Shown here piece by piece: positions 14,006-18,902 of a stretch of DNA of 20,335 bases; position 1 is the stretch's first letter; every line of letters starts with the position of its first letter. The DNA comes from a virus. The translations under genes were made by a program, and so were the position numbers. The DNA lies in IMG/VR virus record IMGVR_UViG_3300020160_001136, positions 1-20,335 of that record; one strand, written 5' to 3'. The notes under the pieces are model-generated. The model saw only the letters and a program-made list of their open reading frames with translations. It did no database searches and had not been told where the DNA came from.

Positions 14006-14024
14006 TGTTATAAAACTTTTCAAG

Positions 14025-14032: not shown

Positions 14033-14165
14033 AAAAAGAAGCGTCTCTGGAGTTGAGACGCTTCTTGAGTGCTTGGCGACGGGCCTTTGCTTGTCGGAGT
14101 GCTTGCGGTTTGAGTTTCCGCTTCTGATCCTTCTTGGAGTGGTGGTAGCGATTGGGAACTTGCAT
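14028..14165 (-). CDS. 45-residue highly basic small ORF
   Basis: Starts MQVPNRYHHSKKDQKRKLKP and ends KKRLNSRDASFL. About 15 of 45 residues are Lys or Arg, with two His and no acidic run, so the product would bind nucleic acid or ribosomes. It begins 12 bases after the gp46 stop. Codons favour C and G at third positions more than its neighbours do. The last dozen codons coincide with a perfect 12-base terminator stem and the stop codon lies in the late promoter. Because a hairpin explains part of the sequence, the ORF could be chance, but the codon pattern before the hairpin looks genuine. Confidence 0.55.
   Translation of the reverse strand: MQVPNRYHHSKKDQKRKLKPQALRQAKARRQALKKRLNSRDASFL
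14032..14066 (-). terminator. Rho-independent terminator after gp46
   Basis: A perfect 12-base stem, AAGAAGCGTCTC with GAGACGCTTCTT, a seven-base loop, then TTTT running into TATAAATA. It is the strongest terminator in the window and ends the recombination-nuclease transcript. Confidence 0.92.
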
Positions 14166-14177
14166 TGTTCTGTTTGT

Positions 14178-15893
14178 TTATGATTCTACTTTATATGAGA
14201 ATCCTCCCTTCTTGTCAAACCTTGTGACACTTTGGAATTTGTCCTCAAGTCCAGTCTTATGAGAAATTACAAATATATTAGCATCCTTTATGACATAACG
14301 AATAATTTTAAGAAACTCTTCGGTTCCAAATCCATCCAGAGATGAATCAAAAACTTCATCCATAATTAAGAGATTTGTATTCACAGAGTTTTTGACTCTT
14401 GCAACTTCCCTCCAAGTAAAGAGAAGAGATAAATCCACTCTCATTTTCTCACCTTCACTGAAAGAACTATAAGAGAAGTTCTCGTGAATAGGGGACTTGA
14501 TGCTCTCATTAAACTCTTCATCCAGATGGAAATTAATGTAAAAATCCATCATCTGCAAATAACGATTCACCTGTTGATTGATGAAGGGAAGATATTTTTT
14601 GATAATTTTGGTTTTTACACCATCATCTTTGAGAAGAGAGTACGCAAAATCATAATGAACGATCTCTTCCTTTTTAGTTCCCAAATCCTCAAATACTTTT
14701 TGAAGATTGGTTTGAAACTCGTCTAACTTTTCGTGTTCAGTATTCTTGTTTTCAAGTTGTTCGGTAAGTGTTTGAATTTCACTTTCCAAATCCCTAACCT
14801 GTCGCTGGTTAGATGAAATCCTAGCATTGTTTTGAGAAATGTCATTGTTGAGTTTCGTAATCTCCTTAGATAGAGCAATAAATTGACGCTCTCTCTCCTC
14901 TTCCAGTTTTATGGTTTCTTCAAGGTCTTTATAACCTTGTTGAAGTTCCTTAGCACTATTTTGAGCGTCGGTAATTCTATTTAACCGAAACTCTTCTTCA
15001 ATTGTTTGAGTGCAGGTAGGACAAACCGTATTCTCTGTGAAGAACTTGTGCTCTTTGGTAATGGTAGATACTTTCTGGGAGATTTTACCTTTCAGGTTAC
15101 CCAACTTTCTCAATTTATCAGTCGCACCAATAACTTCCTCTTGCTCCTTAGTATATCCAAAGATACTTTCTTCGGTGGTTGAGTTTTGAAGCATATAAGC
15201 ATCAACCTCACTAATCAAATTAGTAATCTTTTGCTTATTAGCATTAATATTATCCTTTCCACGACTCTCTAACTGCTCAATAAAGTTCTTCTGCATTAGA
15301 ACCTTATCTTTGAGAGATTCTTTTCTAAGGTCCAAAGATTTAATCTGTTCCTTTTGCTGACGAATCTTTTCTTTAATCAAATTATTCATCGAGGAGAAGA
15401 TACGAATATCCAGCAAATCCTCAATTACCTCACGACGATTTGCCGTAGCCAATTGCATAAATGGAACAAAATTACTAGAACCCAGAATTACAATCTGAGT
15501 AAAAGACTTATAGTTGACCTTGAGAATATTCTCTTCTAAAATTTTTTGATTCGCACGATCATCTGCTTCCTTATGAAGTTGCTTTCCATTTACCTCAATA
15601 TCAAAAACATTTGGTTTAATTCCACGACGAACCAAATACTCACGACTATTCACAGAAAACTCAATCTCTACAAGACAGTCCTTTTCGTTGGTACTGTTAG
15701 GAAGTTGGGGTTTATTGATTTTGCGGAATGGGCGATTGAACAATACAAAAGTCAAGGCATCCAGCACAGTGGATTTGCCAGCACCATTTGTCCCAACAAT
15801 CAAGTTGGTTTGGTTTTTTTGGAAGTCCATTTCAGTGAAATGCTGTCCCGTAGAAAGAAAGTTCTTCCACCTAATTTTTTTAAAGATAATCAT
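14178..15893 (-). CDS. 46: Recombination nuclease ATPase subunit gp46 (Rad50-like)
   Basis: SMC-like ATPase that pairs with gp47 to resect DNA ends for recombination-dependent replication and host DNA breakdown. The 571 residues match T4 gp46 (560). Motifs: FKKIRWKNFLSTG at the start, Walker A GTNGAGKST (34-42), a Q-loop region, two coiled-coil arms (about 170-285 and 300-400) around the zinc hook CPTC (290-293), ABC signature FSEGEKMRVDLSLL (477-490), Walker B LLIMDEVFDSSLDG (507-520) and an H-loop VISHK. The ATG at 15893 overlaps the end of the preceding endonuclease gene by 14 bases. No ribosome site of note is seen, so it may depend on coupling to that inserted gene or to longer transcripts. 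Confidence 0.97.
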   Translation of the reverse strand: MIIFKKIRWKNFLSTGQHFTEMDFQKNQTNLIVGTNGAGKSTVLDALTFVLFNRPFRKINKPQLPNSTNEKDCLVEIEFSVNSREYLVRRGIKPNVFDIEVNGKQLHKEADDRANQKILEENILKVNYKSFTQIVILGSSNFVPFMQLATANRREVIEDLLDIRIFSSMNNLIKEKIRQQKEQIKSLDLRKESLKDKVLMQKNFIEQLESRGKDNINANKQKITNLISEVDAYMLQNSTTEESIFGYTKEQEEVIGATDKLRKLGNLKGKISQKVSTITKEHKFFTENTVCPTCTQTIEEEFRLNRITDAQNSAKELQQGYKDLEETIKLEEERERQFIALSKEITKLNNDISQNNARISSNQRQVRDLESEIQTLTEQLENKNTEHEKLDEFQTNLQKVFEDLGTKKEEIVHYDFAYSLLKDDGVKTKIIKKYLPFINQQVNRYLQMMDFYINFHLDEEFNESIKSPIHENFSYSSFSEGEKMRVDLSLLFTWREVARVKNSVNTNLLIMDEVFDSSLDGFGTEEFLKIIRYVIKDANIFVISHKTGLEDKFQSVTRFDKKGGFSYKVES

Positions 15894-16362
15894 TAATGTA
15901 AGAAATCATATTATAGAGAACTTTTGGATCTTCTTTCAAAAGACCAAGAGAGGTATTACAATTACGACATAGTAATGCCCTGACTTTATTTGTAGTATGG
16001 TTGTGATCTACTTGTGGAGAATTCATTTCACACTCACATATTTTACATTTATTATTCTGCTCCTCTAGCATAGCAGAAAATTCTTCTGTCGTCAATCCAT
16101 AATGAGTTTTTAACTTATATTTTTTTCTATATTCCGAATTGTTACAAGAATTATTTTTTCTAAGTTTTCTTTGTTGCTCTAGTGTTAAATTGTGATATTT
16201 TTCCTTTTGCTCTGCTCTTAAGCATTCCTTACAAGAAGATTTATAGCAAATGGTTTTACGCATATAACCATCCGATCCAATTTTTCCAGGTTTTTGTGCT
16301 ATATGAAATTCACAGACTGATTTTTCAATACGACAAATCTTACAAATTTTAGTATCTTTCAT
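15880..16362 (-). CDS. Endonuclease VII-like (His-Me/HNH) nuclease
   Basis: A 160-residue protein with the recombination endonuclease VII fold signature: HYGLTTEEFSAMLEEQNNKC, CKIC (C106, C109), VDHNHTTNKVRALLCRNC (D119 to C135) and SLGLLKEDPKVL. C106, C109, C132 and C135 should bind zinc; D119-H122 are catalytic. T4 gp49 of this family resolves Holliday junctions during packaging, but related free-standing nucleases in phages are mobile homing enzymes. An extra N-terminal Cys set (C7, C10, C44, C47) may form a second zinc ribbon for target recognition. It sits between the DUF3110-like gene and gp46, overlaps gp46 by 14 bases, and has its own late promoter inside a hairpin. That setting favours a homing-type insert, though a gp49-like role fits too. 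Confidence 0.85.
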   Translation of the reverse strand: MKDTKICKICRIEKSVCEFHIAQKPGKIGSDGYMRKTICYKSSCKECLRAEQKEKYHNLTLEQQRKLRKNNSCNNSEYRKKYKLKTHYGLTTEEFSAMLEEQNNKCKICECEMNSPQVDHNHTTNKVRALLCRNCNTSLGLLKEDPKVLYNMISYINDYL

Positions 16363-16364
16363 AG

Positions 16365-16403
16365 AAGTAGAAAAACTTTTAACTATTTATAACTTTTCCA
16401 CTT
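16365..16403 (-). promoter_or_regulatory. Hairpin enclosing the late promoter of the Endo VII-like gene
   Basis: AAGTGGAAAA (16394-16403) pairs with TTTTCTACTT (16365-16374), with one G-U pair. The loop holds TATAAATA. The 3' arm ends two bases before the start codon, so read-through transcripts would have the start region folded while transcripts from the late promoter would not. Confidence 0.6.
16384..16391 (-). promoter_or_regulatory. T4-type late promoter of the Endo VII-like gene
   Basis: A perfect TATAAATA 22 bases before the start codon at 16362, placed in the loop of the hairpin at 16365-16403. Confidence 0.78.
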
Positions 16404-16409
16404 TTAATA

Positions 16410-16673
16410 TCAATCATTATTCTTAGGAGGAATCACAATGTCGTCAGGAGTAATCACTGCATATCGATAATTATACATCTTACAAGTCTTTATGGCAAGC
16501 TCATCATCTACTTCTACAACATCCATCTCTTTCTCTTCTTGGTCTTCTAGCATTAGAGCATAACGAGTCGCATCATCTTCTTCCTCAAAAAGGAATAAAA
16601 CTTTTTCACCATATTTGTCTTGGACGGCAAATGCACCGTCACCCTTTTGATCCTTAAGTGTGAGAAGAAACAT
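16410..16673 (-). CDS. DUF3110-like protein of cyanobacterial type
   Basis: An 87-residue protein. EKVLFLFEEEDDATRYALML followed by an acidic mid-section, a Cys-containing helix and VITPDDIVIPPKNND resembles DUF3110, a short family of cyanobacteria and chloroplasts whose hallmark is a VLMFE-type strand, the DDATRYA helix, and a closing PP..N. Function is unknown in the family. The ATG overlaps the gp47 stop (TAATG), so it is co-translated with gp47 and lies between the two nuclease subunit genes. It could be a host-derived gene or a phage gene of the same ancestry. No membrane segment is visible. Confidence 0.72.
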   Translation of the reverse strand: MFLLTLKDQKGDGAFAVQDKYGEKVLFLFEEEDDATRYALMLEDQEEKEMDVVEVDDELAIKTCKMYNYRYAVITPDDIVIPPKNND

Positions 16674-17710
16674 TACTCAACTTCGCAAGCCTCTTTATAA
16701 AGATTTTGTAGAATTCCCTTGATGATATTTTTATCAAACTGAACTTCGGACTCATCAATATAACGATTTAGAATTGAAAGAGTATTCTCTTCTTCATCGA
16801 CTTGAAAATCTTCACTTTCCTGAATTTCAAAGTTTTCAATAATTTTAAGATCTTGAATTCCTGCTGTATATAATTTATCTACAAACTTTTCAAAATCCTT
16901 TGCTTTTGTTTTTTTACGAACAATAATCTTTACAATTTTATTCTCATACTCCCGAGCATCAAATGTCTGATAAGGAGTATCCTCATAATAAAGATTATAG
17001 AATAATTTATAAGGATTATCAATTGGAGTATGAATGAGGGTTTCTGTATCAAAGATATGAAATCCACGAGCATCATTTACATCCGTCCAATACATTTCAT
17101 AAGGATTACCAAGATAGAAGATGCGTCCATTATCAGAACGAGTGTGGTAATGACCAGAAAATACCTTTGTGAACTTTGAAAAAATATTTGAATCCAGTCC
17201 ATGTTCCTCCATTATAAGATTACAATTTACACGGAAACCTTGAAGTTCTAAGTGTCCCATTGCAACCTTTGCCTTGGATTTCTTAATGACATTCATAGTT
17301 TCATCGTGATTTTCACTACAAATCCAAGGAATAAAGGTCATATCAATTCCACCAACCTTTGTATTTGTTGGAGAACTATAAGTTTTGATATTTGGATAAG
17401 TCTTGAGAAGCAGGTCTGGGGAGTTTACATGATTAGTATTCTTATAATAACAATCATGATTACCAACAATCATATGAACATCATACTCACGCAGAGGTTC
17501 AAATACAACTCTCTTTGCCCATTCCAGACTTTGATAATCAATTGACTTACGACTATCAAATGCATCACCCATATGAATGACTGTCTTTACTTCATGCTCT
17601 TCTAGGGCAGGAAAGAAAACATTCTTATAGAAAAGTTCAAAATGGTCGTGAAGATGCTTTGAACCTTTTTTTGCCCCCCAATGTGTGTCAGAAATCACAC
17701 CAATTTTCAC
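16673..17710 (-). CDS. 47: Recombination nuclease subunit gp47 (Mre11-like)
   Basis: Metal-dependent phosphoesterase subunit of the gp46/47 complex. The 345 residues match T4 gp47 (339). Metal-binding motifs are complete: VISDTHWG (D8, H10), HMGDAFD (D49), VGNHDCYYKN (N84, H85, D86), MGHLEL (H152) and FSGHYHTRSD (H187, H189). The start codon is GTG at 17710, overlapping the stop of the HNH gene as GTGA. The Mre11-like start MKIGVISDTHWG leaves little doubt. The C-terminal third is acidic and probably binds gp46. It is separated from gp46 by the DUF3110-like and Endo VII-like genes. Confidence 0.96.
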   Translation of the reverse strand: MKIGVISDTHWGAKKGSKHLHDHFELFYKNVFFPALEEHEVKTVIHMGDAFDSRKSIDYQSLEWAKRVVFEPLREYDVHMIVGNHDCYYKNTNHVNSPDLLLKTYPNIKTYSSPTNTKVGGIDMTFIPWICSENHDETMNVIKKSKAKVAMGHLELQGFRVNCNLIMEEHGLDSNIFSKFTKVFSGHYHTRSDNGRIFYLGNPYEMYWTDVNDARGFHIFDTETLIHTPIDNPYKLFYNLYYEDTPYQTFDAREYENKIVKIIVRKKTKAKDFEKFVDKLYTAGIQDLKIIENFEIQESEDFQVDEEENTLSILNRYIDESEVQFDKNIIKGILQNLYKEACEVE

Positions 17711-18264
17711 TTTTGTTGCCTCCTACTATTTTCTTGTGCGGTTTTCATAAGATGCTCTTTGTGTGTAATAACTTGTAAATTATTAGGATGGTGCAATCCA
17801 CCTTCAAATAAAGGGACGATATGGTCTACATCATACTGCACACCAGTAGTAAAAGTCAAGTACTGTGCCTGTTGATATACTTCCTGTATTTGTCTAAGTT
17901 GCTGTTCTGTAATATCTAATGGAATACCAAGTTGTTTTCTTGCAAGGTATCTCCTTGTCTTTTCACAACTTACTGCCTTACCTCTTTCAGTTTTAGCATA
18001 TTTTCTTTTTATTCCATTAACTTTTTCTTTATTATCATCACAATATTTTTGTTTCTTCTCCTTTGTTCTATAAGGTTTCATCAACTCTTCATTATTCAAT
18101 TTTTCCAATCCTTTCTTTTTAAGGCAGGGGGCACAACTAGAGATAGATACATATTTTTCATAACTACCACAATGTTTGCAAGCAACAGAACCCTCATAAG
18201 TTTTCTTACCTTCTTCTATTGCCCGTAATCTATTTTCCCTACCTTTACTATATTGATTAGACAT
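17707..18264 (-). CDS. Free-standing HNH endonuclease, probable homing type
   Basis: A 185-residue protein. The N-terminus has a four-Cys zinc ribbon (ACKHCG with C29, C32; SSCAPC with C44, C47). A long basic linker follows, with repeated KRKYAK-type blocks. The C-terminal HNH motif is YDVDHIVPLFEGGLHHPNNL then VITHKEHLMKT, giving D147-H148, N161/N162 and H168/H171. Such nucleases cut DNA at specific sites and spread their own genes among T4-like phages. The gene lies between gp55 and gp47 with GTGA coupling to gp47. Its ribosome site (GGAG) sits in the 3' arm of a perfect 14-base hairpin whose loop holds a late promoter, so expression should be late only. Confidence 0.9.
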   Translation of the reverse strand: MSNQYSKGRENRLRAIEEGKKTYEGSVACKHCGSYEKYVSISSCAPCLKKKGLEKLNNEELMKPYRTKEKKQKYCDDNKEKVNGIKRKYAKTERGKAVSCEKTRRYLARKQLGIPLDITEQQLRQIQEVYQQAQYLTFTTGVQYDVDHIVPLFEGGLHHPNNLQVITHKEHLMKTAQENSRRQQK

Positions 18265-18316
18265 AGTGCTCCGTAATGCTATAACTATTTATAATTATTA
18301 AACATTACGGAGCACT
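18265..18316 (-). promoter_or_regulatory. Perfect 14-base hairpin masking the HNH start
   Basis: AGTGCTCCGTAATG (18303-18316) and CATTACGGAGCACT (18265-18278) pair perfectly around a 24-base loop. The GGAG ribosome site is in the 3' arm, next to the ATG at 18264. The 5' arm begins directly after the gp55 stop codon. The loop contains a late promoter, so only RNA begun there escapes the fold. Confidence 0.88.
18286..18293 (-). promoter_or_regulatory. T4-type late promoter of the HNH gene
   Basis: A perfect TATAAATA in the loop of the 18265-18316 hairpin, 22 bases before the ATG. Transcripts would start near the beginning of the 3' arm and lack the 5' arm. Confidence 0.82.
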
Positions 18317-18838
18317 TCATCGATTGTTGTTTCTGTATTGGATATTGTCCTTCATGGAATTATACTCCGAATTGTTCCCAGAAAGCAAGTTGTCGTCTAT
18401 CACCATAACCTCATCAAATCCAGTGCGTTCAATGATTTTATTTTTAATCTCCAATTGTTTCTTTTCTTTTTGAATTCTACGCAGAAACGCATAATGAATA
18501 ATCTGAGTAAAATAGGCAAATGGATTCTGAGATCTTTCAGGGTTAAAGTTATGAATATACTGAACACAGTTCTCAATCCCGTCAGAAATCATATCCTCAC
18601 GGAACATATAATTGACAAAATTTGGTTTATAGGATAAATGAGTGGCAATCTTTAAGAAGCAATCACCTAAGTAGTTAGGAATTCTGGGTTTTCCTTCCCA
18701 TGGCCCTGACTTTGGTGGATCAATATCATATTTCTCAATGAATAGTTGCCGTGCTTTTTCAACTTTACTGCGATACACTATCATTGCTTCTAACAACTCT
18801 TTATTGTTTACATAATGCTCTGATTTCTTTTTTGCCAT
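18317..18838 (-). CDS. 55: Late transcription sigma factor gp55
   Basis: Phage sigma factor that directs host RNA polymerase to TATAAATA promoters. The 173 residues align with T4 gp55 (185): HYVNNKELLEAMIVYRSKV at the start matches T4 YVNNKELLQAI, then REDMISDGIENCVQYIHNFN and NPFAYFTQIIHYAFLRRIQK, the sigma region 2-like core. The C-terminus is a polar KDNIQYRNNNR tail; I do not see the hydrophobic-acidic clamp-binding tail of T4 gp55. The start ATG at 18838 is placed after a strong host-type promoter. Four late-type promoters it could read lie in this window. The stop codon directly abuts the HNH hairpin. Confidence 0.95.
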   Translation of the reverse strand: MAKKKSEHYVNNKELLEAMIVYRSKVEKARQLFIEKYDIDPPKSGPWEGKPRIPNYLGDCFLKIATHLSYKPNFVNYMFREDMISDGIENCVQYIHNFNPERSQNPFAYFTQIIHYAFLRRIQKEKKQLEIKNKIIERTGFDEVMVIDDNLLSGNNSEYNSMKDNIQYRNNNR

Positions 18839-18872: not shown

Positions 18873-18902
18873 ATTATAGCACACTTTAAGAGGGCTTGAC
18901 AA
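18873..18902 (-). promoter_or_regulatory. Sigma-70 promoter of gp55
   Basis: TTGTCA (18897-18902), an 18-base spacer, then TATAAT (18873-18878) with an extended TG (TGCTATAAT). It lies about 35 bases before the gp55 start and would let host RNA polymerase make the late sigma factor early. Confidence 0.85.

Follow-up and report, generated by a model that had tools for sequence, protein, structure and literature searches.

A predicted translational mask enclosing a late promoter precedes a nuclease gene inserted between gp55 and gp47 in a T4-like virus

The analysed DNA, referred to as the window, is a stretch of 20,335 nucleotides from an IMG/VR virus record (IMGVR_UViG_3300020160_001136). It contains, in this order, uvsW, a small conserved protein, gp55, an HNH nuclease, gp47, a small ORF, an endonuclease VII-family gene, and gp46. 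All of these genes lie on the minus strand, and their order and proteins are of the T4-like cyanophage type. The nearest annotated DNA belongs to Synechococcus and Prochlorococcus phages. Judging by these features, the window appears to derive from a T4-like virus with a cyanobacterial host. The elements relevant to this study are the following:

18873–18902, minus strand: sigma-70-type promoter TTGTCA-18-TATAAT upstream of gp55 (11/12 match, TG before the -10 element)
18317–18838, minus strand: gp55, late sigma factor, 173 aa (PHROG 234, E 2.7e-65)
18319–18317, minus strand: stop codon TGA of gp55
18303–18316, minus strand: 5' arm AGTGCTCCGTAATG, immediately past the gp55 stop
18279–18302, minus strand: loop, 24 nt
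18286–18293, minus strand: late promoter octamer TATAAATA in the loop, 29 nt before the ATG; predicted late start at about 18280
18265–18278, minus strand: 3' arm CATTACGGAGCACT, directly followed by the HNH start codon
18269–18272, minus strand: GGAG Shine-Dalgarno sequence (SD) within the 3' arm, 4 nt before the ATG
18264–18262, minus strand: start codon ATG of the HNH gene
17707–18264, minus strand: HNH nuclease of the inserted cassette, 185 aa (PHROG 1035, 333; D147-H148/N162/H171 conserved; dN far below dS)
16673–17710, minus strand: gp47, with a GTG start overlapping the HNH stop (GTGA) and AGGAGG inside the HNH 3' end
16384–16391, minus strand: TATAAATA within the loop of another, weaker hairpin (hairpin region 16362–16410), before the endonuclease VII gene
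15880–16362, minus strand: endonuclease VII-family nuclease, 160 aa (Pfam PF02945, E 2.9e-20), downstream of this second hairpin and its octamer

A Pfam search of the HNH protein yielded no match, and PHROG provided the only matches. The four catalytic residues, a motif assigned by eye, are invariant in an alignment of 20 sequences.

Read 5' to 3' on the minus strand, the junction consists of the gp55 TGA, AGTGCTCCGTAATG, the loop TTTAATAATTATAAATAGTTATAG, CATTACGGAGCACT, and the HNH ATG. An earlier note on this DNA (the original prediction) had described a 14-base perfect repeat reaching from the gp55 stop to the HNH start, with GGAG in the 3' arm and the octamer in a 24-base loop. This description proved exact: the arms are 100% complementary, and the two elements were located at 18272–18269 and 18293–18286. 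It is the sole perfect repeat of at least 14 bp with a loop of at most 60 nt in the whole window. A repeat of such size occurred anywhere in 5/300 dinucleotide-preserving shuffles of the whole window, a count made without demanding stop-to-start placement or an enclosed late octamer. The fold z-score, computed on the plus strand sequence, was -4.4. An Rfam search gave a single, spurious match on the plus strand (mir-203, 28 bits compared to a gathering score of 65). The octamer TATAAATA occurs five times on the coding (minus) strand of the window and never on the plus strand. At 14066–14025 (minus strand), a perfect 12-bp repeat with a T run, resembling a terminator, is directly followed by a late octamer and then by an ORF at 14023. 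By itself, the perfect repeat at the gp55-HNH junction is suggestive; its placement and its relatives decide.

In IMG/VR, 78 loci with HNH relatives were identified, and gp55, gp47 or both adjoin the nuclease gene in the expected order in all of them (78/78; in a few cut contigs a single flank is visible). In the phage collection, no isolate with a close relative of the HNH protein was identified, and the best full-length matches have about 35% identity. Together with pattern matches, these loci provided 112 leaders, of which 52 are distinct in the last 48 nt, and the hairpin is kept in nearly all of the latter. Two main types were distinguished. Type I leaders (TGCTCC.../...GGAGCA) precede proteins starting with MPNQY or similar, and type II leaders (CTAACTCC.../...GGAGTTAG) precede proteins starting with MTKPKYTPEE or similar. 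Wherever the context was readable, all matches to the type I and type II patterns adjoin gp55; DNA pattern scans for these leaders at other genomic sites thus found no other insertion site. The exact octamer NATAAATA is present in 45/52 distinct leaders. Among the seven leaders without it, four (L012, L014, L041, L072) contain a near-octamer in the loop, and in two (L068, L060 group) the loop is missing. Neither hairpin nor octamer was found in L160, a distant HNH relative with 35% identity. With the octamer loop gone in L068 (about 73–109) and in L060–L062, the two arms adjoin and form a near-perfect palindrome; such leaders may be silenced alleles, or they reflect an artefact of assembly or of the library.

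The pairing of the 12-bp core was evaluated in 22 distinct type I sequences, where 93.6% of cells are paired. Shuffling of the 3' letters reduced this value to 85.8% (0/500 shuffles reached the observed pairing), and sliding of the partners reduced it to 24–57%. Two-sided changes were found at 6/12 stem pairs. With 15 distinct arm pairs, a partner shuffle attained the observed pairing at p = 0.0002; the sequences are akin, and these shuffle statistics ignore kinship. A compensated change hits even the SD, which reads GGTG/CACC instead of GGAG/CTCC in some relatives. Weakening of the SD thus leaves the pairing intact. Many leaders mix the 5' arm of one allele with the 3' arm of another and then contain one or two mismatches. 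These data argue for conservation of the stem through compensatory change, and this comparative evidence for the hairpin is much stronger than the shuffle test. A chance inverted repeat, which the 5/300 shuffled windows with a 14-bp repeat might suggest, is extremely improbable in view of compensatory conservation in dozens of distinct leaders and was rejected on the basis of covariation.

The repeat might act as DNA, either as an operator or a cleavage/recognition site of the nuclease, or as a cruciform. It possesses dyad symmetry and overlaps a late promoter, and compensatory changes would preserve a DNA dyad equally well. Moreover, an operator bound by I-TevI overlies the late promoter of this nuclease, and autorepression of T4 intron nucleases via sites of this sort is either reported or proposed (PMC2988022). 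However, the stems of related nucleases (TGCTCC, TGCACC, TGTACC, and CTAACTCC types) differ greatly while pairing is kept, and G-U pairs occur at one stem position in 8/22 rows. A role as DNA is therefore an unlikely explanation of the repeat; it could coexist with a role in the RNA.

Folding predictions were performed for the read-through RNA and for an RNA starting at 18280. The inverted repeat is predicted to pair the ribosome site: the unpaired probability of the GGAG is 0.00 in the read-through RNA and 0.97, 0.97, 0.98, and 0.63 for its four bases in the late RNA. The predicted cost of opening the start region is 20.7 kcal/mol in the read-through RNA versus 6.1 kcal/mol in the late RNA; the HNH AUG is predicted to be mostly paired in the late RNA (unpaired probability of about 0.1). 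For 45 distinct nuclease leaders, the median extra opening cost in the read-through RNA is 12.7 kcal/mol, compared to 1.4 kcal/mol for 33 other octamer-preceded ORFs of a 213-kb relative, a background that includes some short ORFs which are maybe not genes. The corresponding Mann-Whitney p of 1.3e-13 overstates independence, because the nuclease leaders are mutually related. An initial search of the 213-kb relative for helices, which used a simple mismatch rule, missed the known hairpin of that genome (p = 0.24) and was superseded by duplex energies and opening costs. The identification of GGAG as the masked element calls for caution: it is paired in the predicted fold of the window leader, but some relatives have GGTG, and the stem of the second nuclease lacks an SD. 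Given these exceptions and the gap of only 4 nt between GGAG and ATG, the exact masked element is uncertain.

The sequence NATAAATA is the cyanophage late promoter, and g55 is present in all sequenced cyanophages (PMC2984593). In nearly all type I leaders the octamer starts 29 nt before the ATG (28 to 31 nt in a few), and in type II leaders 36 nt before it. This spacing is fixed although the stretch upstream of the octamer varies by about ten nucleotides. Pieces of the 213-kb relative contain 47 octamer sites upstream of ORFs, with 29 nt as the most frequent octamer-to-start spacing (8 sites; 23 sites within 26–31 nt). With NATAAATA at a typical distance from the start codon in a phage that encodes gp55, the element has the features expected of a T4-type late promoter. 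The late start presumably lies about 6 nt from the octamer, the usual offset of T4 late promoters. This places it near 18280, in agreement with the range of 18276–18280 claimed previously. As the octamer lies between the arms, a late RNA would lack the 5' arm, and with a start near 18280 it would leave out this arm entirely.

A sigma-70 match of at least 9/12 is found upstream of gp55 in 138/152 loci, compared to 7.8% of shuffled controls. This conserved promoter is a plausible source of early read-through RNA. The proposal that the nuclease is silenced during early gp55 transcription gains support from it as far as transcription is concerned; the silencing itself is a prediction.

L080 and L082 are relatives without an insert, and in them an ATGA is shared by the end of gp55 and the start of gp47. 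The window has the leader after the gp55 TGA and a GTGA in which the HNH stop and the gp47 start overlap; AGGAGG within the HNH 3' end lies just upstream of the gp47 start. Altogether, 158 gp55-gp47 junctions were compared: 77 contain members of the HNH family or chimeras, 65 are insert-free, and 16 contain something else. The comparison with HNH-free junctions, which the original prediction had proposed, came out in its favour: a leader would not fit into any of the 65 insert-free junctions, and these contain neither leader nor octamer. Among the 16 other, non-overlapping junctions, a late octamer was found only in L087, L131, L118, L157, and L159, in each case before a nuclease-like ORF, and it was absent from those lacking such an ORF. 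The junction ORFs of L118, L157, and L159 are endonuclease VII matches (tblastn). Those of L087 and L131 are open frames of 240 and 91 aa that look like GIY-YIG nucleases by eye; they have a late octamer and lack a clear masking stem. The cultured phage S-SRM01 has an endonuclease VII gene at the same junction, together with a similar TATAAATA hairpin.

These junctions bear on two further explanations. The octamer might mainly serve as a late promoter for gp47-gp46, with the hairpin having little effect on the nuclease; the overlap of the HNH stop with the gp47 start and the AGGAGG imply that a late loop RNA would feed gp47 as well. However, insert-free relatives have the gp55/gp47 overlap and no late octamer between the two genes. 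Thus, gp47 does not need the late octamer, and the masking stem would not be kept by compensation if the octamer mainly served gp47-gp46. We regard this explanation as quite unlikely. Alternatively, the hairpin could define the 3' end of the gp55 mRNA or act on the stability of this mRNA (as a terminator, an exonuclease block, or a processing site), and the overlap of the hairpin with the HNH start would then be incidental. In the window it directly follows the gp55 stop, and hairpins after genes often protect mRNA. However, the position of the hairpin tracks the nuclease start and not the gp55 stop, from which it is about 300 nt apart in L045 and L046. Furthermore, the hairpin is absent from insert-free junctions, a similar one precedes the endonuclease VII gene after a different gene, there is no T tract, and a terminator scan between gp55 and the HNH gene gave no terminator-like match. 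The element is thus not an intrinsic terminator in the sense of a stem followed by a T tract. Based on the L045/L046 position, the junction control, and the terminator scan, a terminator or gp55 3' element was rejected, and we consider it very unlikely. Between gp55 and the masked nuclease leader, L045 and L046 contain an extra ORF of about 300 nt; similar ORFs occur in L086, L116, and L117 without a nuclease.

The HNH insert is present or absent at one and the same site among close relatives, as judged from their sequences. The flanking proteins of the empty alleles L080 and L082 are 92–96% identical (gp55 95% and gp47 94% for L080). For the window compared to L001, dS of the HNH gene is 0.39, whereas dS of gp55 is saturated; the nuclease therefore appears to have moved between divergent phages. 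We propose that the leader travels with the nuclease as one cassette, which is inserted in the gp55-gp47 overlap. In chimeras (L065, L066, L068–L071, L073–L076, L201), the same leader type and HNH residues 1–76 are combined with an endonuclease VII-like domain.

A second, similar leader, which the original prediction did not contain, precedes the endonuclease VII gene between gp47 and gp46. Its octamer is 29 nt before the ATG, and its stem AAGTGGAAAA/TTTTTCTACTT contains one G-U pair and no SD. Taken alone, the window hairpin is not significant (p = 0.07), and the case rests on its relatives. In L165–L170, L020, and L028 the stems have changed and still pair, for example:

L165 stem: GTGGAAAAA/TTTTTCCAC
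L166 stem: TAGAAAAA/TTTTTCTA
L168 stem: GTGGAATAACT/AGTTATTCCAC

In the window, the predicted opening cost for this gene differs little between the two RNAs (5.0 versus 3.4 kcal/mol); for L168 a large effect is predicted (15.6 versus 1.8 kcal/mol). At the second nuclease, one may speculate that masking acts on the start region as such, perhaps on a pyrimidine-rich contact site for the ribosome.

We read the anatomy of the HNH leader, its compensatory conservation, the fixed promoter spacing, and the association with nuclease inserts as a translational mask of the T4 type that is combined with a late promoter and belongs to a free-standing, mobile nuclease gene, and assign to this reading a probability of about 0.87. 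A mask that is bypassed by a late RNA starting in the loop had been predicted originally, and covariation, constant spacing, the control junctions, and predicted folding strongly support it. From the sequences we infer the following course of events. Early in infection, host sigma-70 RNA polymerase would transcribe gp55 from the conserved promoter and continue into the nuclease gene. In this read-through RNA the arms would pair and bury the start region, as suggested by folding and covariation, so that little nuclease would be made. Once gp55 is present, late transcription would begin near 18280, directed by TATAAATA in the loop; as the resulting RNA lacks the 5' arm, the ribosome site would be open and the nuclease made late. 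Because the insert carries AGGAGG near the gp47 start, gp47 would be translatable from either RNA.

The further claim that gp55 and the nuclease form a circuit, in which the upstream gene product opens the downstream gene, was over-read, because gp55 serves all late promoters and is expected at each of the 47 octamer sites of the 213-kb relative. The claim is also weakened by the similar leader before the nuclease between gp47 and gp46, away from gp55. A circuit exists only insofar as every late gene depends on gp55. That gp55 lies next to the nuclease gene is better accounted for if the insertion site is the gp55-gp47 junction.

Masking hairpins combined with late promoters are known for I-TevI, I-TevII, I-TevIII, segB, and mobE (PMC2988022), and for e, soc, and 49 (PMC3014915). 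Like the HNH leader, mobE of the Aeromonas phage Aeh1 concerns a free-standing HNH gene of a T4-like phage with a hairpin over the ribosome-binding site in the read-through RNA, and its late promoter yields an RNA without the full structure (PMC2988022). mobE is inserted in nrdA, whereas the window HNH gene lies at gp55-gp47, and the likeness is one of design. T4 I-TevI, I-TevII, and I-TevIII similarly have a late promoter beside the ORF and a hairpin only on early/middle RNA (PMC2988022, PMC3014915). In contrast to the window HNH gene they are intron-encoded; I-TevI is a GIY-YIG nuclease whose control also affects intron splicing. T4 segB is a free-standing homing endonuclease gene with a predicted masking hairpin and a late promoter (PMC2988022), but encodes a GIY-YIG nuclease and lies in the tRNA region. 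The late genes e, soc, and 49 of T4 are present on early read-through RNA, in which their start sites are masked (PMC3014915). The product of gene 49 is endonuclease VII, of the same family as the second window nuclease. Unlike the window insert, these three are resident phage genes not shown to be mobile. The psbA 5' UTR of cyanophage S-PM2 likewise contains an inverted repeat, with an upstream gp55 site and the nearby homing endonuclease F-CphI; however, that hairpin lies on psbA and has been discussed with regard to light and mRNA stability, not early nuclease masking (PMC5931967). On the defining features decidable from sequence, the window leader belongs with the T4/Aeh1 design. It thus joins a known kind, and the mechanism, being that of T4 and Aeh1, is not new.

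In the open-access literature, which leaves most subscription journals outside the scope, no report of this leader in cyanophages was found. The finding thus concerns a phage group without a found report of such a leader and provides a useful natural data set. Tentatively, and at somewhat short of even odds, the leader may be regarded as a late-only safety catch that is portable: the same leader and an exchangeable N-terminal segment of about 76 residues would travel together and be combined with catalytic domains of the HNH or endonuclease VII type. Distinct leaders with unrelated stems would then have arisen or been acquired repeatedly at gp55-gp46 nuclease inserts, and cassettes would have been selected for a built-in late switch and a ribosome site for the displaced host gene.

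The leader extends a classic control device of T4 from coliphages and Aeromonas phages to cyanophage-related viruses. The natural variation is unusually rich: stems exist in dozens of alleles, some junctions are empty, and nuclease domains are swapped. This variation lets one test why mobile phage nucleases are delayed. The timing of expression of a nuclease insert becomes predictable from sequence alone. Finally, the arrangement points to a way in which two overlapping genes can receive a selfish insert while the neighbouring gene is still expressed.
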